From Methanolinea sp. (GTDB lineage: Archaea > Halobacteriota > Methanomicrobia > Methanomicrobiales > Methanospirillaceae), in contig JADFDO010000014.1 of the NCBI GenBank assembly GCA_018262855.1, positions 1-52,134 of the forward strand: a stretch of 52,134 nucleotides of DNA. Direction: 5' to 3'. Made by a program: the position numbers and the translations under genes. Below, piece after piece: positions 2,256-37,378 of the stretch (the stretch's first letter is position 1; the number at the start of each line of letters is the position of its first letter). The notes beneath the pieces were generated by a model, which saw only the letters and a program-made list of their open reading frames with translations, ran no database searches and had not been told where the DNA came from.

Positions 2256-3143
2256 TCATCCGGGGATGGCACACCAGAGCCTGTACGCCGCACGCCAGAT
2301 TCTTTCGCTCCCCGAAAGGCCTGAGAGCCAGCGCTCGGGGATGGTGTGAACCCCGTAGGAGGATCCCGCCAGCGCCCCTGTGATCGCTGCCACGGTGTCA
2401 GTGTCCCCGCCCAGGCTCACGGCCACCGGGACTGCCTCCCTGAATGATTCCGTCTCCATGAACACGGAAACGGCTGCATGGGTCGCAAGGAGCGCATCGA
2501 GGCCCGCGACCTGCGGATACGCCCCGAAGTGCCCGAGAACCGATGCCACTTCTTCGATCCGGCACTTCTGCAGCGCCCTCGCCCATGCCCTCCGTTTCGG
2601 GACCCCTCGGCACATGTCGCTCACCATGCGGTTGACAAAGGACGAACACGCTCCCGCGACGGGGTCCCGGTGAGTGAGCGCCGAGCAGGCGAACGAGCAG
2701 GCCTCCACCTCGGGCCCCGAATAGAACACCCCTATTGGTGCCCCCCGCATCACGCTCCCGTTGCTCCGGCTCCCGCCCCGTTCTTCGTGCACGATCCGGG
2801 CCGCAGCATGGAGCGGCACCCCCGCCCGCACACGCTGAAAGACCGCCCCCGACGTCGGGCCATACCAGAAAGGGGTAAGGTCAAAATCCCTGATGAGCCT
2901 CCCCATGAAGTCCTCCGGGCAGTACCCTCCGCACGACGCAAGCGACTCCGCAAGCGCAAGGGCCTGGAGAGTATCGTCAGTGTAACTCCCGGATTTCCTG
3001 GCCATCCGTCCCCCCGGCAGGAAATTCCCGGTAAATCCGGGATGCTCCGGAGTCCCTTCAAAGGGCGCACCCATCGCGTCCCCAATTGCCAGCCCCACAA
3101 GGACTCCGGCCACATACCGAATGTCGGATATAAAGGTCACCAA
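2256..3143 (-). CDS. ADP-ribosylglycohydrolase (DraG/ARH3-like)
   Basis: The enzyme family removes ADP-ribose from proteins or small molecules using a binuclear Mg centre. The metal-binding signatures are visible: GDAMGAPFE at residues 21-29, TDDT at 55-58 and GGDTDTVAA near residue 250. The 295-residue length is normal. The start is uncertain. The longest frame begins with TTG at 3143 or GTG at 3140, but a TATA-like stretch (about 3146-3155) is too close for that. A leaderless GTG at 3113, starting just before the conserved GVLVGLAIGDAMG, would fit both the promoter and the family N-terminus. The gene is divergent from UPF0058. The physiological substrate cannot be inferred. Confidence 0.9.
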   Translation of the reverse strand: MVTFISDIRYVAGVLVGLAIGDAMGAPFEGTPEHPGFTGNFLPGGRMARKSGSYTDDTLQALALAESLASCGGYCPEDFMGRLIRDFDLTPFWYGPTSGAVFQRVRAGVPLHAAARIVHEERGGSRSNGSVMRGAPIGVFYSGPEVEACSFACSALTHRDPVAGACSSFVNRMVSDMCRGVPKRRAWARALQKCRIEEVASVLGHFGAYPQVAGLDALLATHAAVSVFMETESFREAVPVAVSLGGDTDTVAAITGALAGSSYGVHTIPERWLSGLSGSERIWRAAYRLWCAIPG

Positions 3144-3145
3144 TA

Positions 3146-3155
3146 AACTATATGG
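3146..3155. promoter_or_regulatory. TATA-like element between divergent genes
   Basis: An A/T-rich core, AACTATATGG, lies between the ADP-ribosylglycohydrolase and UPF0058 starts and reads similarly on both strands. It is about 40 nt upstream of the UPF0058 GTG. It could also serve a leaderless transcript of the opposite gene if that gene starts at 3113. Called by eye only. Confidence 0.4.
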
Positions 3156-3193
3156 TATCAGGAAAATAGTCTTGATTCTAAGAAGGTGATTGT

Positions 3194-3460
3194 GTGCAAA
3201 AGGAAGAACTTCTCCATCTCCACATGCTGATGATTCACATCAAGAAATACTACGAAACCATCACCAACCAGGAAATTCCCACCAACCGCTACAATTCACT
3301 TGAAATCTCTCCTGTGCATATCCACAAGAATAAAAAATGCCACAAGGATGCCATCCTTGCCCTTGGCGACGAGATCGTCAACCACATAAGGGGCGACCAG
3401 ATGGTTCCAGTCGGATATTCCTCCGATGCGGTATCTGAGACGGTAGCAGCCGAACACTAA
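3194..3460 (+). CDS. UPF0058 family protein
   Basis: The 88-residue protein starts with MQKEELLHLHMLMIHIKKYYE and contains the SPVHIHKNKKCHKDAILALGDEI segment that I associate with archaeal family UPF0058. Function is unknown; the His/Cys-rich centre could bind metal. The GTG start is supported by an AAGGTG ribosome-binding site at 3183-3188. The elp3 gene follows after 6 nt, so the two are probably co-transcribed. Confidence 0.85.
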   Translation: MQKEELLHLHMLMIHIKKYYETITNQEIPTNRYNSLEISPVHIHKNKKCHKDAILALGDEIVNHIRGDQMVPVGYSSDAVSETVAAEH

Positions 3461-3466
3461 TCTTTT

Positions 3467-5041
3467 ATGCACGACCCCGATATCTCCCGCGAGATACTCG
3501 AGGTCCTGTGCTCCCGGGTGGTGCTCCCGGGAGACGTCACACGGATAAAGATAGAGATCTGCAGGAAACACGGCGCTCCAGGGGTGCCGAAGAACTCGGC
3601 ACTCCTTGCCGCGGCACTGCCTGAAGAACGCGAACGGCTCATTGAACTCCTGCGTGTCAAGCCAACAAGGACCCTTTCCGGCGTTGCGCCCGTGGCAGTG
3701 ATGACCTCACCCTTCCCGTGCCCGCACGGAAAGTGCCTCCCCTGCCCAGGCGGCCCGGATCACCCCTTCCAGTCACCGCAGAGCTATACCGGCGAGGAGC
3801 CAGCCGCACTCCGTGCACGGGAACACGGGTATGATCCCTATGCACAGGTCAGGGCACGGCTGGAGCAGTTCGAATTGCTGGGCCACCACGTCGATAAGGT
3901 GGAGCTCATCGTCATGGGAGGGACCATGACCGCGAGACCCGCTGACTACCAGGAATGGTTCGTCTCATCCTGTATCCGGGCTATGAACGAATACAGGGGG
4001 CACCACCCGGGGACTGCCGCGGACCAGATCTCGATCTTCAGGCAGAACGAGTACTCCCCGGTCCGGTGCGTGGCAACAACCTTCGAGACGAGGCCCGACT
4101 GGGCGCAAAGAGAGCATATCGACCGGATGCTTGCGCTCGGCGTCACCAAGGTCGAACTCGGTGTCCAGCACCTTGATGACCGTATCCTCGCGTTCAACCG
4201 GAGAGGCTGCACCGTGGCCGACACGATTGAGGCCAACCGGATGCTCCGGGACGCAGGGATCAAGGTGGGATTCCATATGATGCCGAACCTCCCGGGGAGC
4301 AGTATTGAGTCTGACAGGTGGATGTTCCGCGAACTGTGGGAGAACCCCTCCTTCAGGCCCGATTTCCTCAAGATATACCCGACCCTGGTCACGCCGGGAT
4401 CCGAGATCGAATCGCTCTGGAAGAAGGGCGAATACGCTCCCTACGATGAGGACGATCTCATCGATCTCGTCGCATACGGCAAATCGCTTCTCCCTGAGTA
4501 TGTCCGCCTCCAGAGGATCCAGCGGGACATCCCGGCAAAGCTGATCGTCGCAGGTTCGCGCCACAGCAATTTCCGGCAGCTCTGCAGGGAGCGCCTTCAT
4601 GCTCTCGGGAAGCGATGCCGGTGCATCCGCTGCCGGGAGGCAGGGAGATCACCTGGTGGCGGGGAGATCACGTTCAGGAACGAGCGCTACTCGTGCACGG
4701 GGGGAACCGAGTACTTCCTCTCCGCCGTATCCGGGGACTCCCTTGTGGGATTCGCCCGCCTGCGGTGCGGGGGAACACGGTGGCGTGAAGAGATCCTGGA
4801 TGCGGCTCTTCTCAGGGAACTCCACGTGTACGGGAGTATCGTCCCCCTCGGGAGCTCCCCCGCCCCGGACCAGCGCCAGCACAGGCGGTTCGGCCGGATG
4901 CTGCTGTCACGTGCGGAAGAGACGGCACGTGCTGAAGGATACCGCGAGATCGCGGTCATGAGCGGGATCGGGGTGAGGCCGTACTACAGGCGTCATGGAT
5001 ATGAGCGGCGGGGCCCATACATGCACAGGAGACTTGCATGA
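3467..5041 (+). CDS. elp3: Elp3-type tRNA uridine(34) acetyltransferase (radical SAM + GNAT)
   Basis: Archaeal Elp3 uses acetyl-CoA and SAM to start carboxymethylation of wobble U34 in tRNA. The 524-residue product has the full two-domain architecture. The radical-SAM cluster motif CPHGKCLPC supplies C85, C90 and C93, followed by the MGGTMTARP segment and a TIM-barrel core. A C-terminal GNAT domain ends in GVRPYYRRHGYERRGPYM, with the acetyl-CoA loop near QHRRFGRMLL. The stop overlaps the priS start by 4 nt (ATGA), suggesting translational coupling. Confidence 0.95.
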   Translation: MHDPDISREILEVLCSRVVLPGDVTRIKIEICRKHGAPGVPKNSALLAAALPEERERLIELLRVKPTRTLSGVAPVAVMTSPFPCPHGKCLPCPGGPDHPFQSPQSYTGEEPAALRAREHGYDPYAQVRARLEQFELLGHHVDKVELIVMGGTMTARPADYQEWFVSSCIRAMNEYRGHHPGTAADQISIFRQNEYSPVRCVATTFETRPDWAQREHIDRMLALGVTKVELGVQHLDDRILAFNRRGCTVADTIEANRMLRDAGIKVGFHMMPNLPGSSIESDRWMFRELWENPSFRPDFLKIYPTLVTPGSEIESLWKKGEYAPYDEDDLIDLVAYGKSLLPEYVRLQRIQRDIPAKLIVAGSRHSNFRQLCRERLHALGKRCRCIRCREAGRSPGGGEITFRNERYSCTGGTEYFLSAVSGDSLVGFARLRCGGTRWREEILDAALLRELHVYGSIVPLGSSPAPDQRQHRRFGRMLLSRAEETARAEGYREIAVMSGIGVRPYYRRHGYERRGPYMHRRLA

Positions 5042-6204: not shown

Positions 6205-6811
6205 ACTGCGGATCATTCTCCTCTCGGAGCGGGAGACGGGGCGCCTCGTACAGATCCAGAAGGACCTCTTCGTATCTGCCGGAAAGAGCCTCGGGGAACT
6301 GTATACCGGCCTTTATGCCTGCGAAGATCCCTTCTCAGACGAAGCCAGGGTCCTGATCGAACGGATCAGCGCAATCAGGGAGACCCTCTCGGACCTCTAC
6401 CGGATCCGGGCAGAGAAGATACTCTCCCTTGCCCGCACCCAGGAAGAGGGGAGTTATATCGACCGGGAGGAACTGAAAAAGATGCTGCCCGAAGAGAAGG
6501 ACATGTTCGACCAGGTGGTCCTCTCACTGGAGCAGGCACGGTGCCGGCTCGTGGAGGGTGCCATGCCAAGGGTTCCGCCCCGCCCGGGGAAGGAACGTGA
6601 GGGAGAGCCCTGCGCCGCAGTGCTTGCACAGGACGCCCAGGACCTCCCACGGTTCGTGGTCACACGGGTACTGCAGGACATGGAGCCCTTCATGGGGGTT
6701 GACGGCCGGATCTATGCACTCCGGCAGGAAGACCTCGTGACCCTCCCGGAGAGGAATGCCGAGGTTCTCTGTGAGCGCAACATAGTCTTAAATATCAACC
6801 CGGGCAAATAA
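6191..6811 (+). CDS. GINS complex protein (archaeal Gins51/15-type)
   Basis: GINS joins MCM and the RecJ/Cdc45-like protein in the archaeal replicative helicase complex. The 206-residue product has a helical N-terminal half ([17 protein letters not shown] onward) and a C-terminal small domain ([18 protein letters not shown], then [19 protein letters not shown]), the order of Gins51-type proteins. The adjacency to priS is a common archaeal arrangement. The frame is open further upstream, but GTG 6191 has a strong GGAGGAGGGG ribosome-binding site at 6179-6188 and gives the expected N-terminus. The proposed start lies inside the 3' end of priS. Confidence 0.85.
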
Positions 6812-6848
6812 TACTGATATTCGATATCCTGAATACGAGGTCAGTTCT

Positions 6849-7127
6849 ATGAAAATGCCAGTAAAATTCAAGACATACTGCCCGTTCTGCCGCAGCCATC
6901 AGGTCCATGAGGTGGAGAAGGTCAAGAAGAGCAAGACCACAGGTCTCCACTGGATCGACCGGCAGAAGGCGAGGAGGAGCAGCGTGGGCAGCATGGGGAA
7001 GTTCTCGAAGGTGCCCGGAGGGGACAAGCCCACCAAGAAGATCAACGTGAGATACCGGTGTGTCACCTGCAAGAAGGCACACCTCCGGGCAGGATTCCGG
7101 GCAGGCAAGTTCGAGCTGAAGGAGTGA
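6849..7127 (+). CDS. rpl44e: 50S ribosomal protein L44e
   Basis: The 92-residue zinc-ribbon protein of the large subunit has two CxxC pairs (YCPFCRSH and RCVTCKKAH) and the conserved [13 protein letters not shown] and GKFSKVPGG segments. The start ATG is preceded by GAGGT. The S27e gene follows after 5 nt. L44e-S27e-aIF2alpha-Nop10 is a well-known conserved archaeal gene order. Confidence 0.97.
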
Positions 7128-7132
7128 AGAGC

Positions 7133-7321
7133 ATGGTCAGACAACTTCGTGAGAACCGAAGCAAATTTTTCAGGGTCAAGTGCCCCGAATGCGACAACGA
7201 GCAGGTCGTCTTCGAGAAGGCAAGCACCGTCGTGGACTGCGTGGTCTGTGGCAAGGTCCTTGCCGAGCCTTCCGGTGGAAAGGCAGACGTAAAGGCAGAG
7301 ATCCTGGCAACGCTCGAGTGA
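7133..7321 (+). CDS. rps27e: 30S ribosomal protein S27e
   Basis: The 62-residue zinc-ribbon ribosomal protein has CPEC and CVVC pairs binding the structural zinc and the signature FRVKCPECDNEQVVFEKAS. The frame extends upstream into L44e, but ATG 7133 gives the normal N-terminus MVRQLRENRSKFF and a gap of 5 nt from the L44e stop. Confidence 0.97.
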   Translation: MVRQLRENRSKFFRVKCPECDNEQVVFEKASTVVDCVVCGKVLAEPSGGKADVKAEILATLE

Positions 7322-7330
7322 TTGAGTCTC

Positions 7331-8116
7331 ATGAGCGAGAGAGAATGGCCTGAATCGGGGGAACTCGTCGTCTGCACGGTCAAGGACGTCAAGGATTTTG
7401 CAGCCTTCGTCAACCTCGACGAGTACCCGGGAAGGGTCGGCCTTATCCCGATCTCTGAGGTCGCGACCGGGTGGATCAAGTACATCCGCGACCATATACG
7501 GGAGGGCCAGAAGGTGGTCTGCAAGGTCCTTCACGTTGAAACGCAGAGGGGGCATATCGATCTCTCGCTCAAAGACGTGAACGAGCACCAGCACAGGGAG
7601 AAGATCCGGGAATGGAAGAACGAATCGAAAGCCCGCAAGTGGATAGGGTTTGCGGCCCAGGCTGCCGGTGAAAAGCCCGAGGCCATAGAGGATGCCATCT
7701 ATTCCCATTACGGCGATCTCTACTCGGTGTTCGAGGATATCGTGAACGGCGAGCGGTCCCTCGATCCGCTCAATCTCTCACCCGGTGTTGTCTCAGCGCT
7801 GCAGCAGGTCGCAAGGGACAACGTGAAAGTGCCCAGGGTCGCGGTCGGCGGGAACATCATCCTCACCTCCACAAAACCCGACGGTGTGAACATCATCAGG
7901 AGGGCTCTCCGGAGTGCGGAGCCGAAGATCCCCGGTGTCGATATCGAGATCTCATACCTTGGAGCGCCGACCTATCGCATCAAGGTCACCGCCCGCGATT
8001 ACAAGACTGCCGAGAAGGCCGTTGAGAAGGCCGCCTCGGCCGCAATCGGTGTCGTGGAGCGGGCCGGTGGAGAAGGGAAGTTCATCAAGAAGCCCAAGTC
8101 CGGGAAGACAGTATGA
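7331..8116 (+). CDS. eif2a: Translation initiation factor aIF2 alpha subunit
   Basis: This is the alpha subunit of the heterotrimeric aIF2 that delivers initiator Met-tRNA to the small ribosomal subunit. The 261-residue chain has an N-terminal S1 domain ([19 protein letters not shown] to [10 protein letters not shown]), a helical middle domain and a C-terminal alpha/beta domain ([20 protein letters not shown]). A TTG at 7322 is in frame, but ATG 7331 gives the typical start [14 protein letters not shown]. Its stop overlaps the nop10 ATG by 4 nt. Confidence 0.97.
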
Positions 8117-16332: not shown

Positions 16333-16399
16333 TTCCCCCATCCTCAGTTCATTAAATCTCCGTCTTCACGTGCATTTTCTCGCTACCCCTGCCCACAGG

Positions 16400-16522
16400 C
16401 TATCGCGTCTCGGGGGTGGTCCTGATGGGGATTCTCCCCCTCCGGTCACAATAAAACCGCACTCCCTCTCAGACGTTCTTGGGGCTGATGCCCCGCCGCT
16501 GTGGTATCCCATATTGCGATAG
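16400..16522 (+). repeat. 123-nt intergenic element, copy 1
   Basis: The unit begins CTATCGC (16400-16406) and ends GCGATAG (16516-16522), a 7-bp terminal inverted repeat. Inside are GTGGTCC, a G/C hairpin, GGTCAC, then TAAAACCGCACTCC and the small hairpin GGGGCTGATGCCCC. Copy 3 has exactly the same length and order. No reading frame is conserved. A short GCCCACAG motif precedes it. Confidence 0.85.
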
Positions 16523-16672
16523 GGCCCGTGGAGCAGGAGGGGGTTCTACACCCTCCTGCGGGGGAACAAGGGCAGGGAAATTCTCCCCCCTCTGGTCACA
16601 GTAAAACCGCACTCCCCCTCAGACGCTCTTGGGGCTGATGCCCCGCCGCTGTGGCATCCCGAATTGCGATAG
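16523..16672 (+). repeat. Repeat element copy 2, with replaced left half
   Basis: The right half, from GGTCACAGTAAAACC at about 16595 to GCGATAG ending at 16672, matches copies 1 and 3 almost exactly. The left half is different. It starts GAGCAGGAGG and folds as the hairpin GCAGGAGGG/CCCTCCTGC, then CGGGGGAACAAGGG. The same left half reappears at 27.87-27.95 kb. This looks like recombination between two repeat families. Confidence 0.75.
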
Positions 16673-16728
16673 GTTCCGTGCTGAGTATATCCTCTTCTGG
16701 CCGAATTCGAATCCCACCTGCCCACAGT

Positions 16729-16851
16729 TTATCGCGTCTCAGGCGTGGTCCGGAGGGAATTCACACCCTTCCTGTCACAGTAAAACCGCACTCCCCCTCA
16801 GACGCTCTTGGGGCTGATGCCCCGCCGCTGTGGCATCCCGAATTGCGATAG
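16729..16851 (+). repeat. 123-nt intergenic element, copy 3
   Basis: This copy is the same length and internal order as copy 1, from TTATCGC (one change from CTATCGC) to GCGATAG. It contains GTGGTCC at 16745-16751 and the GGGGCTGATGCCCC hairpin near 16810. The inner hairpin arms (GGAGGG with CCTTCC) differ from those of copy 1. Confidence 0.85.
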
Positions 16852-16908
16852 AGCCCGTGCTGAGAAAAAATTCAGGTTAAATCTCCAACAATTCACCCTG
16901 CCCACAGA

Positions 16909-16964
16909 CTATCGCGTTTCCGGGGGAGGGGACAGGGGAGGGGGATTCTCCCCCTCCCCCAATG
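16909..16964 (+). repeat. Partial repeat element, copy 4
   Basis: The GCCCACAG leader and CTATCGCG start are present, followed by a long G-run/C-run hairpin (about 16934-16961) in place of the GTGGTCC hairpin. The right half is missing. It lies about 120 nt from the 3' end of the convergent receiver gene and might act as a terminator. Confidence 0.65.
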
Positions 16965-24445: not shown

Positions 24446-24548
24446 TTTTTCACCACGGAAAGGACATCATCTCGTATGAAAGGAGAATAGGTTCAGCGTT
24501 CTTATGTAAGTATGGAAACACACCGGGGCGGAATCCGGGTCTCTCTCT

Positions 24549-24781
24549 TCTGACTCGCGGAAATGGATCTCCACTCTTCATTCTGACTCGCGGAAATGGA
24601 TCTCCACTCTTCATTCTGATTCGCGGAAATGGATCTCCACTCTTCATTCTGATTCGCGGAAATGGATCTCCACTCTTCATCCTGACTCGCGGAAATGGAT
24701 CTCCACTCTTCATTCTGACTCGCGGAAATGGATCTCCACTCTTCATTCTGACTCGCGGAAATGGATCTCCACTCTTCATTC
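24549..24781 (-). repeat. 33-nt tandem repeat array growing from the 3' end of rnz
   Basis: Seven tandem copies share the core CGCGGAAATGGATCTCCA, with exact 33-nt period (cores start at 24556, 24589, 24622, 24655, 24688, 24721 and 24754). The eighth core at 24787 is the last coding stretch of rnz. Units differ by only a few T/C changes. Read on the minus strand, the array is open in frame (unit MKSGDPFPRVR) and its first ATG overlaps the rnz stop as ATGA. I regard that reading as a by-product of the duplication. Confidence 0.93.
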
Positions 24782-25720
24782 TGACTCGCGGAAATGGATC
24801 TCCATCATATCAAGGTCGGAGGGGATCACGATCTCGCCGCTGAACCGTGCAGAAGCGTCCTTCTGGTGGCCGGCAACGGTGGTATATCTCGAGCTGATGT
24901 GGACAAGCGCGAGGATCCGGGCAGAGAGGTACTCCGCCGCGCAGCCTGCCTCTCCTGCCGTGGAATGGAGCACCTCCTTTGCACGATCGATTGCCTCATC
25001 ATCGTAGGTTGCATCGTGGATCAGGAGATCAGGGTGATGTGCGATTTCCAGTATCTTCGTATGGACCGGGCGGGTGTCGCCCGTGTAGACGATCTTCCGG
25101 CCGGGCCGGGCCCTGCCCATGACCTCGTCGGGGCTCACCTCAACGCTCCTGCCATCCGTTTCGATGCAGACAGTCTCACCCCTCTGCAGCCTCCCGAAGA
25201 GGGGGCCGGGCGGGACCCCGAGTTCGATCGCACGCTGCCGGTTGAACTTGCCGGGCCTTGCATCCTCCTCGAGTACGTACCCGAGCGCCGACATGCCATG
25301 GGCAGTCTCGAATGCCCTGATACAATACCCGGCATATTCCACGATAGATCCATGCCGGAGCTCGACTGACCGGATGGGAAACTTCACGTTATACCGTGCG
25401 AGGGTCCTTACCGATGCCGCAATCTCGTGGACCCACTCCGGGCCATAAATGGTGAGGGGCTCGGTCCTGCCCATGAACGAGAGGGTCTGGCAGAGTCCGA
25501 ACAGCCCAAGGAAGTGATCGGCATGCCAGTGGGTGATGAAGATCGCGTCGACCAAAAACCCTGTCCTCGCCCTCATCATCTGCTGCTGGGCGCCCTCACC
25601 GCAGTCGAAGAGGAGGGTATCGTGTCCCCGTTTGATCATGATACAGGGAGGGTTCCGCATCGGCGTGGGCAGCGCCGCCGCCGTCCCGAGGAAATAGACG
25701 TGGAGGGTCTCCCCGCTCAT
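24776..25720 (-). CDS. rnz: Ribonuclease Z (tRNA 3'-end processing)
   Basis: RNase Z cleaves the 3' trailer of pre-tRNA, essential where CCA is not encoded, as in the two tRNA genes here. The 314-residue metallo-beta-lactamase protein has the motif THWHADH (H64, H66, D68, H69), FLGTAAALPT at the start and VYTGDTRP. The C-terminal HISSRYT motif is also present. The ATG at 25720 overlaps the upstream stop as ATGA and is preferred over an in-frame ATG 9 nt upstream. Its final codons seed the downstream 33-nt array. Confidence 0.95.
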   Translation of the reverse strand: MSGETLHVYFLGTAAALPTPMRNPPCIMIKRGHDTLLFDCGEGAQQQMMRARTGFLVDAIFITHWHADHFLGLFGLCQTLSFMGRTEPLTIYGPEWVHEIAASVRTLARYNVKFPIRSVELRHGSIVEYAGYCIRAFETAHGMSALGYVLEEDARPGKFNRQRAIELGVPPGPLFGRLQRGETVCIETDGRSVEVSPDEVMGRARPGRKIVYTGDTRPVHTKILEIAHHPDLLIHDATYDDEAIDRAKEVLHSTAGEAGCAAEYLSARILALVHISSRYTTVAGHQKDASARFSGEIVIPSDLDMMEIHFRESE

Positions 25721-27831: not shown

Positions 27832-27875
27832 CGTGCTACATTATTGCGCCGGGAAGTTTCTTCAAGGTATGGGGA

Positions 27876-27902
27876 GCAGGAGTGGTCCTGGACCACTCCT
27901 GC
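27876..27902. repeat. REP-like hairpin 1 (GCAGGAG family)
   Basis: A perfect 13-bp inverted repeat, GCAGGAGTGGTCC/GGACCACTCCTGC, separated by one T. It is followed by GGGGAACCAAGGGG, as in the repeat at 16.53 kb, where the stem arms have different but still complementary bases. Confidence 0.85.
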
Positions 27903-27920
27903 GGGGAACCAAGGGGTGGT

Positions 27921-27944
27921 CCGGAGGGGTGCATACCCCTCCGG
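27921..27944. repeat. REP-like hairpin 2 (GTGGTCC family)
   Basis: A perfect 10-bp stem, CCGGAGGGGT/ACCCCTCCGG, with loop GCAT. It is flanked by GTGGTCC and GGTCA, the flanks shared with the elements at 16416-16448 and 16745-16777. Confidence 0.85.
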
Positions 27945-28169
27945 TCAGAGGAATTCCTGGTTCGTTGTTAGTTATTCTCCATCTTCTGCGTGGAGGTTGA
28001 GCAATACCTAAAAAAATGGGGAGATCATTCAATCATCAGGGTATTGAGAGCTAATCCCCAGCGCGTCTCTCGATACGATTCAATCCATCATCCCCTCTCC
28101 CGAAACCCCCCATGATGCTTCGCAATCCAGTTCAGCGTTTGATTTTCAATTCAAGTTGTTTCAACGCAA

Positions 28170-37092: not shown

Positions 37093-37378
37093 CGGAACCG
37101 GGGCCTCCTGCCCCGTCTCCGGTCTCACCCGCTAATGCGGGCCTGATCGCCCACCACCGGGACTCCCGCCCCGTCTCCGGTCTCACCCGCCAATGCGGGC
37201 CTGATCGCCCACCACCGGGGCTCCCGCCCCGTCTCCGGTCTCACCCGCCAATGCGGGCCTGATCGCCCTCTCGCCGGGGCCTCCTGCCCCGTCTCCGGCC
37301 TCACCCGCTAATGCGGGCCTGATCGCCCTCTCGCCGGGGCCTCCTGCCCCGTCTCCGGCCTCACCCGCTAATGCGGGT
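37093..37378. repeat. 58/60-nt tandem array at the 3' end of the MTHFS gene
   Basis: Five copies of GGYCTCACCCGCYAATGCGGG begin at 37121, 37179, 37237, 37297 and 37357, giving periods of 58, 58, 60 and 60 nt. The last copy contains the final codons and TGA stop of the MTHFS gene. Each unit holds two hairpins, CGGGGC/GCCCCG and CCCGC/GCGGG. The array fills the gap between convergent serS and MTHFS genes. Confidence 0.93.

Follow-up and report, generated by a model that had tools for sequence, protein, structure and literature searches.

A tandem array in a Methanolinea genome, probably derived from a Methanoregulaceae MITE of the IS5 type or sharing its core

A stretch of 52,134 nt from Methanolinea sp. 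(contig JADFDO010000014.1), analysed as a whole and referred to here as the window, harbours an array of repeats at 16388–16957, within an intergenic region of 750 nt. Here a dispersed repeat of ∼175 nt, arranged as B-loop-A and free of ORFs, is clustered in tandem; it is probably descended from an IS5-type MITE of Methanoregulaceae or has its core in common with one. The intact family is assigned to the IS5-type MITEs on the basis of its TIRs, of 8-bp target duplications, of haloarchaeal IS5 transposases located between the same ends and of a transposase found near a matching TIR in one sister-genus genome. The array is regarded as a TIR-less tandem derivative of this family because the core lies inside the sister-genus MITEs and the ends are missing from the window's own genus.

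The genes flanking the array are convergent: a YcaO-TfuA pair on the + strand to the left (PF02624, PF07812) and a response regulator on the - strand to the right (PF00072 and MetOD2). Repetition inside the array is well beyond chance, with blastn E values of 1.7e-42 and 4.5e-37. The genome to which the window belongs spans 2.29 Mb in 31 contigs, and a covariance model search recovers 10 units at four loci in it. The repeat is short, non-coding and present in multiple dispersed copies. A first-pass annotation of this DNA had left room for a purely local tandem duplication if copies were absent elsewhere; blastn places additional copies on two other contigs of the same genome.

That annotation described an array of 123-nt elements with CTATCGC and GCGATAG as their ends. 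The measurement is sound, as the interval from CTATCGC at 16400 to GCGATAG at 16522 is exactly 123 nt and the internal order of the parts agrees with the sequence. The second such interval, from 16729 to GCGATAG at 16851, has the same length but begins with TTATCGC instead of CTATCGC. A copy said to have a swapped left half does carry a different palindrome there (GGAGCAGGAGGGGGTTC..CCTCCTGCGGGG, at ∼16530–16564). The fourth copy, reported with a swapped right half, is indeed partial; it consists of a left half only, starting at 16897, and this is half A of unit 3. The 123-nt frame itself is out of phase with the conserved unit. Profiles of the two half-elements, applied to 20 regions, show that the gap from B to A is nearly fixed, mostly 32–39 nt, whereas the gaps from A to B are variable, mostly 7–14 or 32–39 nt, and that solo copies are arranged as B-gap-A. 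These three observations define B-loop-A as the true unit.

Half B comprises CCGCACTC..GACGCTC, two hairpins and a 5′ stem arm ending in GCGATAG. It is followed by an apical region of conserved length with a variable centre of ∼35 nt, and then by half A, made of the CTATCGC 3′ stem arm and a GC-rich hairpin. CTATCGC and GCGATAG are accordingly not the ends of an element: together they form one long internal stem, each supplying an arm. The features of the array are collected in Table 1. In unit 1, module X replaces the loop and the left part of half A, and covariance model R1 scores 69.6 bits over 16456–16566.

Table 1. Parts of the repeat array, in window coordinates
Feature	Position	Strand	Evidence or remark
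Half A of leading incomplete unit (own B missing; CTATCGC 3′ arm, GC-rich hairpin)	16388..16448	+	profile A, 52.2 bits
Unit 1, half B (GACGTTC, hairpin GGGGCTGATGCCCC, 5′ arm ending GCGATAG)	16456..16530	+	profile B, 63.8 bits
Palindromic module X (GGAGCAGG..CCTGCGGGG)	16530..16564		no strand; inverted repeat I5 at 16533-16559
Half A remnant, terminal hairpin part only	16574..16598	+	profile A positions 38-61, 13.0 bits
Unit 2, complete B-loop-A	16606..16777	+	CM R1 119.5 bits, E 5.0e-29 over 16606-16748
Unit 3, complete B-loop-A	16785..16957	+	CM R1 131.9 bits, E 2.5e-32 over 16785-16928
Unit 3, hairpin 1 (GGGGCTGATGCCCC)	16810..16823	+	paired in 93% of cells, 130 units; double changes at 4/5 pairs
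Unit 3, hairpin 2 (GCCGCTGTGGC)	16824..16834	+	paired in 94% of cells; double changes at 3/4 pairs
Unit 3, long stem, 5′ arm (TCCCGAATTGCGATAG)	16836..16851	+	pairs with 16909-16925; covariation
Unit 3, apical region, 57 nt between stem arms	16852..16908	+	conserved length, central ∼35 nt variable
Unit 3, long stem, 3′ arm (CTATCGCGTTTCCGGGG)	16909..16925	+	covariation
Unit 3, terminal GC-rich hairpin (GGGGAGGGGGATTCTCCCCCTCCCC)	16935..16959	+	folding; equivalent hairpin closes each unit

The intact form of the element is found in sister genera. Solo copies in genomes G019 (genus g8) and G114 (genus g16) show conservation that runs past the model to inverted ends, GGCTYTGTTGAMA. Exact matches to this TIR pattern number 25 in G019 and 89 in G114, and the reversed control pattern gives none. 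The intact sister-genus element measures ∼260–290 nt, and the core sits inside 44 of the 45 TIR-bounded elements collected from G019, G114 and G024, which represent three genera. Fifteen of these 45 are bordered by 8-bp target duplications that have one mismatch or none, where re-pairing of the flanks predicts 0.18, and exact 8-bp duplications occur in four (0.02 expected). Duplications of 9 bp are absent from the same set, and those of 7 bp occur in four against 0.55 expected. The designation of the array as MITE-like is therefore correct with regard to origin, as the core resides in true MITEs with TIRs and 8-bp duplications; the ends that had been claimed are not borne out, GGCTYTGTTGAMA being absent at the own-genus copies tested. 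One element, flanked by GGGAGAAT, is present both in G019 and in UBA467, a member of the same family as the window's genome, deposited as Methanoregulaceae archaeon. Methanoregula MAGs contain MITEs of 258–483 nt that share the TIR and have a B-like core of divergent sequence (L256 at 7231–7713, L278, L294), some of them with 8-bp duplications.

Of the features that the first-pass annotation had proposed to look for, target duplications are found in sister genera and haloarchaea, and a transposase between matching ends in haloarchaea. Haloarchaeal insertion sequences with the same TIR carry exact 8-bp duplications, and the two with transposase ORFs that were searched both belong to the IS5 family (NF033579, 216 and 208 bits; PF01609). 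These elements, with ends GGCTCTGTTGAAATCCTC (L316 at 2376–3730, L281 at 6255–7508), share with the MITE the TIR and the duplication; they differ from it in being 1.25–1.6 kb long and in containing a transposase and passenger sequence, and those examined lack the B-loop-A core. In G114, the C-terminus of an IS5 transposase truncated by the contig end (42% identity) is located 45 nt from a matching TIR. An intact autonomous IS5 element with these TIRs was found in none of the core-bearing genomes: G024 has the MITE and no PF01609 match, and the PF01609 matches of G019 have no such TIR nearby. The own genome gives no match to DDE_Tnp_1 (PF01609), PF13737, PF13610 or PF01797. The presence of PF01609 failed as a predictor of the TIR; transposase presence does not track TIR presence, as several own-genus genomes hold other PF01609 transposases. 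Further candidate enzymes were set aside. The TIR sequence pointed to an IS6 transposase (PF13610), but none was found in 14 genomes, and the IS903-type domain PF13737 appears only as fragments in G011 and G030. Elements of the IS1595 type, which make 8-bp duplications, occur three times in the own genome, but the ends examined differ (GGTGATT.., GGGTATAGT..). Viral contigs gave no exact match to the core.

In the window's own genus the picture is different from that in the sister genera. The TIR pattern has no match in the own genome (G000), in G008 or in G012; G010 and G011 have one match each, at a distance from any unit and probably within coding sequence. A profile of the full MITE, 269 positions long, finds 75 own-genus matches. 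Their alignments start at position 44–45 in 50 of the 75 and mostly end near 215–226, whereas held-out g8 copies used as a control reach the profile start in 11 of 15 cases and its end in 13 of 15. Homology in the own genus stops sharply ∼44 nt inside both MITE ends, and the terminal arms are absent from nearly all of the 75 copies. One match does extend to position 2, and the sequence there is not a TIR.

The search of relatives that had been recommended, carried out with the covariance model, recovers units in 34 of the 135 complete genomes of the order and in 11 of its 28 genera. Units occupy the site between the TfuA and response-regulator genes in G000, G007 and G012; in G003, G005, G006, G009 and G010 the site measures ∼65–100 nt and contains no units. 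One further orthologous locus has seven units in G011 and four in G008. As sites are common to species with differing unit counts, the arrays are inherited and vary in copy number. A 1.9-kb stretch (L374, L376) shows 100% identity between genomes G008 and G011 and is probably one DNA binned into two MAGs.

Taken in sequence, the events may be pictured as follows. The intact sister-genus element, with its TIRs GGCTYTGTTGAMAYCCT, two hairpins, long covarying stem with apical region and 8-bp duplications, would be mobilised in trans, presumably through recognition of the TIRs by an IS5-family (DDE) transposase. In the own genus, where both terminal arms (∼44 nt each) are missing, the copies have ceased to be recognisable substrates for transposition and pass on by inheritance at fixed intergenic positions. 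Their number presumably shifts by unequal recombination or by replication slippage at the palindromes. That ends were lost, and not a free core captured, is our inference from the comparison.

The opposite direction, in which a core independent of the MITE was captured several times between IS5-type TIRs and persists in its free form in the own genus, has to be weighed against this reading. The sequence between TIR and core differs among genera g8, g16 and g13, the 5′ boundary of the own-genus copies is sharp at CCGCACTC, as would also fit an independent core captured by MITEs, and the A-B joints are alike at different loci. Nevertheless, no ends, target duplications or enzyme are seen for a free form, and the presence of the core in 44 of 45 TIR-bounded elements is most simply explained by one MITE family, so that repeated capture is judged improbable. 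Mobilisation by a RAYT (a Y1 HUH transposase) is more doubtful still. In such a REP/BIME/REPIN-type scheme the RAYT would move the element, and B..B′ palindromes would be the REPIN. Like REP, BIME and REPIN sequences (PMC3116915, PMC3733652), the repeat is palindromic and intergenic, forms mosaics with other palindromic modules and sometimes occurs as inverted pairs (B..B′ in L024, L026 and L052). However, the Y1 transposase PF01797 is found in none of the 37 family-f1 genomes searched, which include all f1 carriers among them, and this refutes RAYT mobilisation in those genomes; the domain is confined to families in which the element is seldom or never seen. The tag that defines REP and REPIN sequences, GTAG or CGTC located 5′ of a single palindrome of 20–40 nt (PMC3733652), is missing as well: on one strand the conserved GACGCTC precedes hairpin 1 on its 5′ side, and on the other CGTC lies 3′ of the hairpin. 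With a longer unit, and with TIRs and 8-bp duplications in sister genera instead, the element has very little chance of belonging to this class. The B motif is also seen as inverted pairs without half A in other genera (L052, L024, L026, L018).

A further group of explanations starts from the structure of the core. In an alignment of 130 distinct units from several genera, double-change cells in both hairpins and the long stem number 184. Shuffles give 104 ± 8, none of 500 reaching the observed count, and controls with slid pairing collapse. The count leans towards structure, as the alignment was fitted to that structure; the same long stem is also visible in an unfitted alignment. Stem-arm spacing is 57 ± 1.5 nt in g8, 56 ± 2.6 nt in g16 and mostly 54–60 nt in the own genus (g1), and the unpaired segments GACGCTC and CCGCACTC are conserved in three genera, as is apical length. 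Covariation is evidence of maintained pairing and does not tell RNA from DNA. These features would suit a structured non-coding RNA family, or stability or termination elements of 3′-UTRs, whose genes are repeated in arrays and for which mobility of the core within a MITE is secondary. The orthologue of unit 2 in G007 could be cited to the same effect: it is 87% identical, compared with 49% at four-fold sites of TfuA and 58% at those of the response regulator, a contrast drawn from one locus. At a second locus pair, element identity (82%) is close to that of the flanks (81–87%), and the high G000/G007 value could reflect constraint, gene conversion or exchange. The wobble pairs lend the RNA reading no support, as the long stem has G.U (174) and A.C (166) mispairs in equal measure and neither strand is favoured; hairpin 2 leans to G.U (72 versus 11 A.C), mostly at one pair. 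The earlier suggestion of small structured RNAs is supported in its structural part, by covariation, and gains nothing from the strand pattern of the long stem. In addition, Rfam 15 yields no match at gathering score, the core travels within DNA bounded by TIRs and target duplications, and copies are unevenly spread, with none in own-genus genome G006 and many degenerate. An RNA family is on balance unlikely. Conservation of the core and of apical length could still point to a function beyond transposition, and there is a small likelihood that the core has been domesticated. The TIR-less B-loop-A would then be retained and amplified in the own genus for a host benefit of its structure, as RNA or as extruded or single-stranded DNA, for example at the 3′ ends of convergent genes or in nucleoid shaping. 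Convergent gene orientation was recorded at 23 of 65 element sites and 82 of 333 background sites, a survey that is given no weight, as its crude ORF caller misassigned the window itself.

The reading as a tandem derivative of a MITE has its closest parallel in the archaeal IS5-family MITEs, such as those of Methanosarcina (PMC3852290). Both are short and ORF-less, have TIRs of ∼13–18 bp matching IS5 and exist as many dispersed intergenic copies with an interior unlike that of the autonomous element; cases in archaea where a MITE resembles its autonomous IS at the ends alone are known (PMC3852290). In contrast, target duplications are 8 bp here and 0 or 3 bp in the IS5 MITEs listed in that survey, a strongly structured, covarying core is common to several genera, and in the window's genus the TIRs are missing and the core is in tandem. 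A CRISPR or guide array does not fit, as copies of the repeat are strongly divergent and their variable parts recur as types across loci and species; for this last reason the loop of 35 nt is not read as a hypervariable guide. The statement that no named family fits the repeat agrees with the sources searched, and the literature covered, itself incomplete, contains no description of it.

The comparison connects archaeal MITEs that have TIRs with tandem arrays in a neighbouring genus that contain the same core and no TIRs, and offers a case in which the loss of ends by a mobile element, its persistence and its local multiplication can be observed. The covariance model of B-loop-A (146 positions) and the TIR signature can be used in the annotation of Methanoregulaceae genomes. 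If the core is functional, the interior of a MITE would have been turned into a host element in methanogens.

Other repeats accompany the array in the window. Module X recurs at 27871, in related genomes and in the G007 array. Its ends, GGGGAGCAG/CTGCGGGG, are constant, and its arms change fully between copies yet remain complementary, a pattern of sequence that suggests a second palindromic repeat family. Next to a radical SAM gene, at 27871–27957, the module (GGGGAGCAGGAGTGGTCCTGGACCACTCCTGCGGGG) forms a composite with a single half-A hairpin (GGTGGTCCGGAGGGG..CCCCTCCGGTCA). A 33-nt tandem repeat at 24450–24804 (7.8 copies, 98%) is in frame with an ORF in which MKSGDPFPRVR is repeated seven times, and a 58-nt tandem repeat of GC-rich hairpins occupies 37097–37377 (4.8 copies, 94%).
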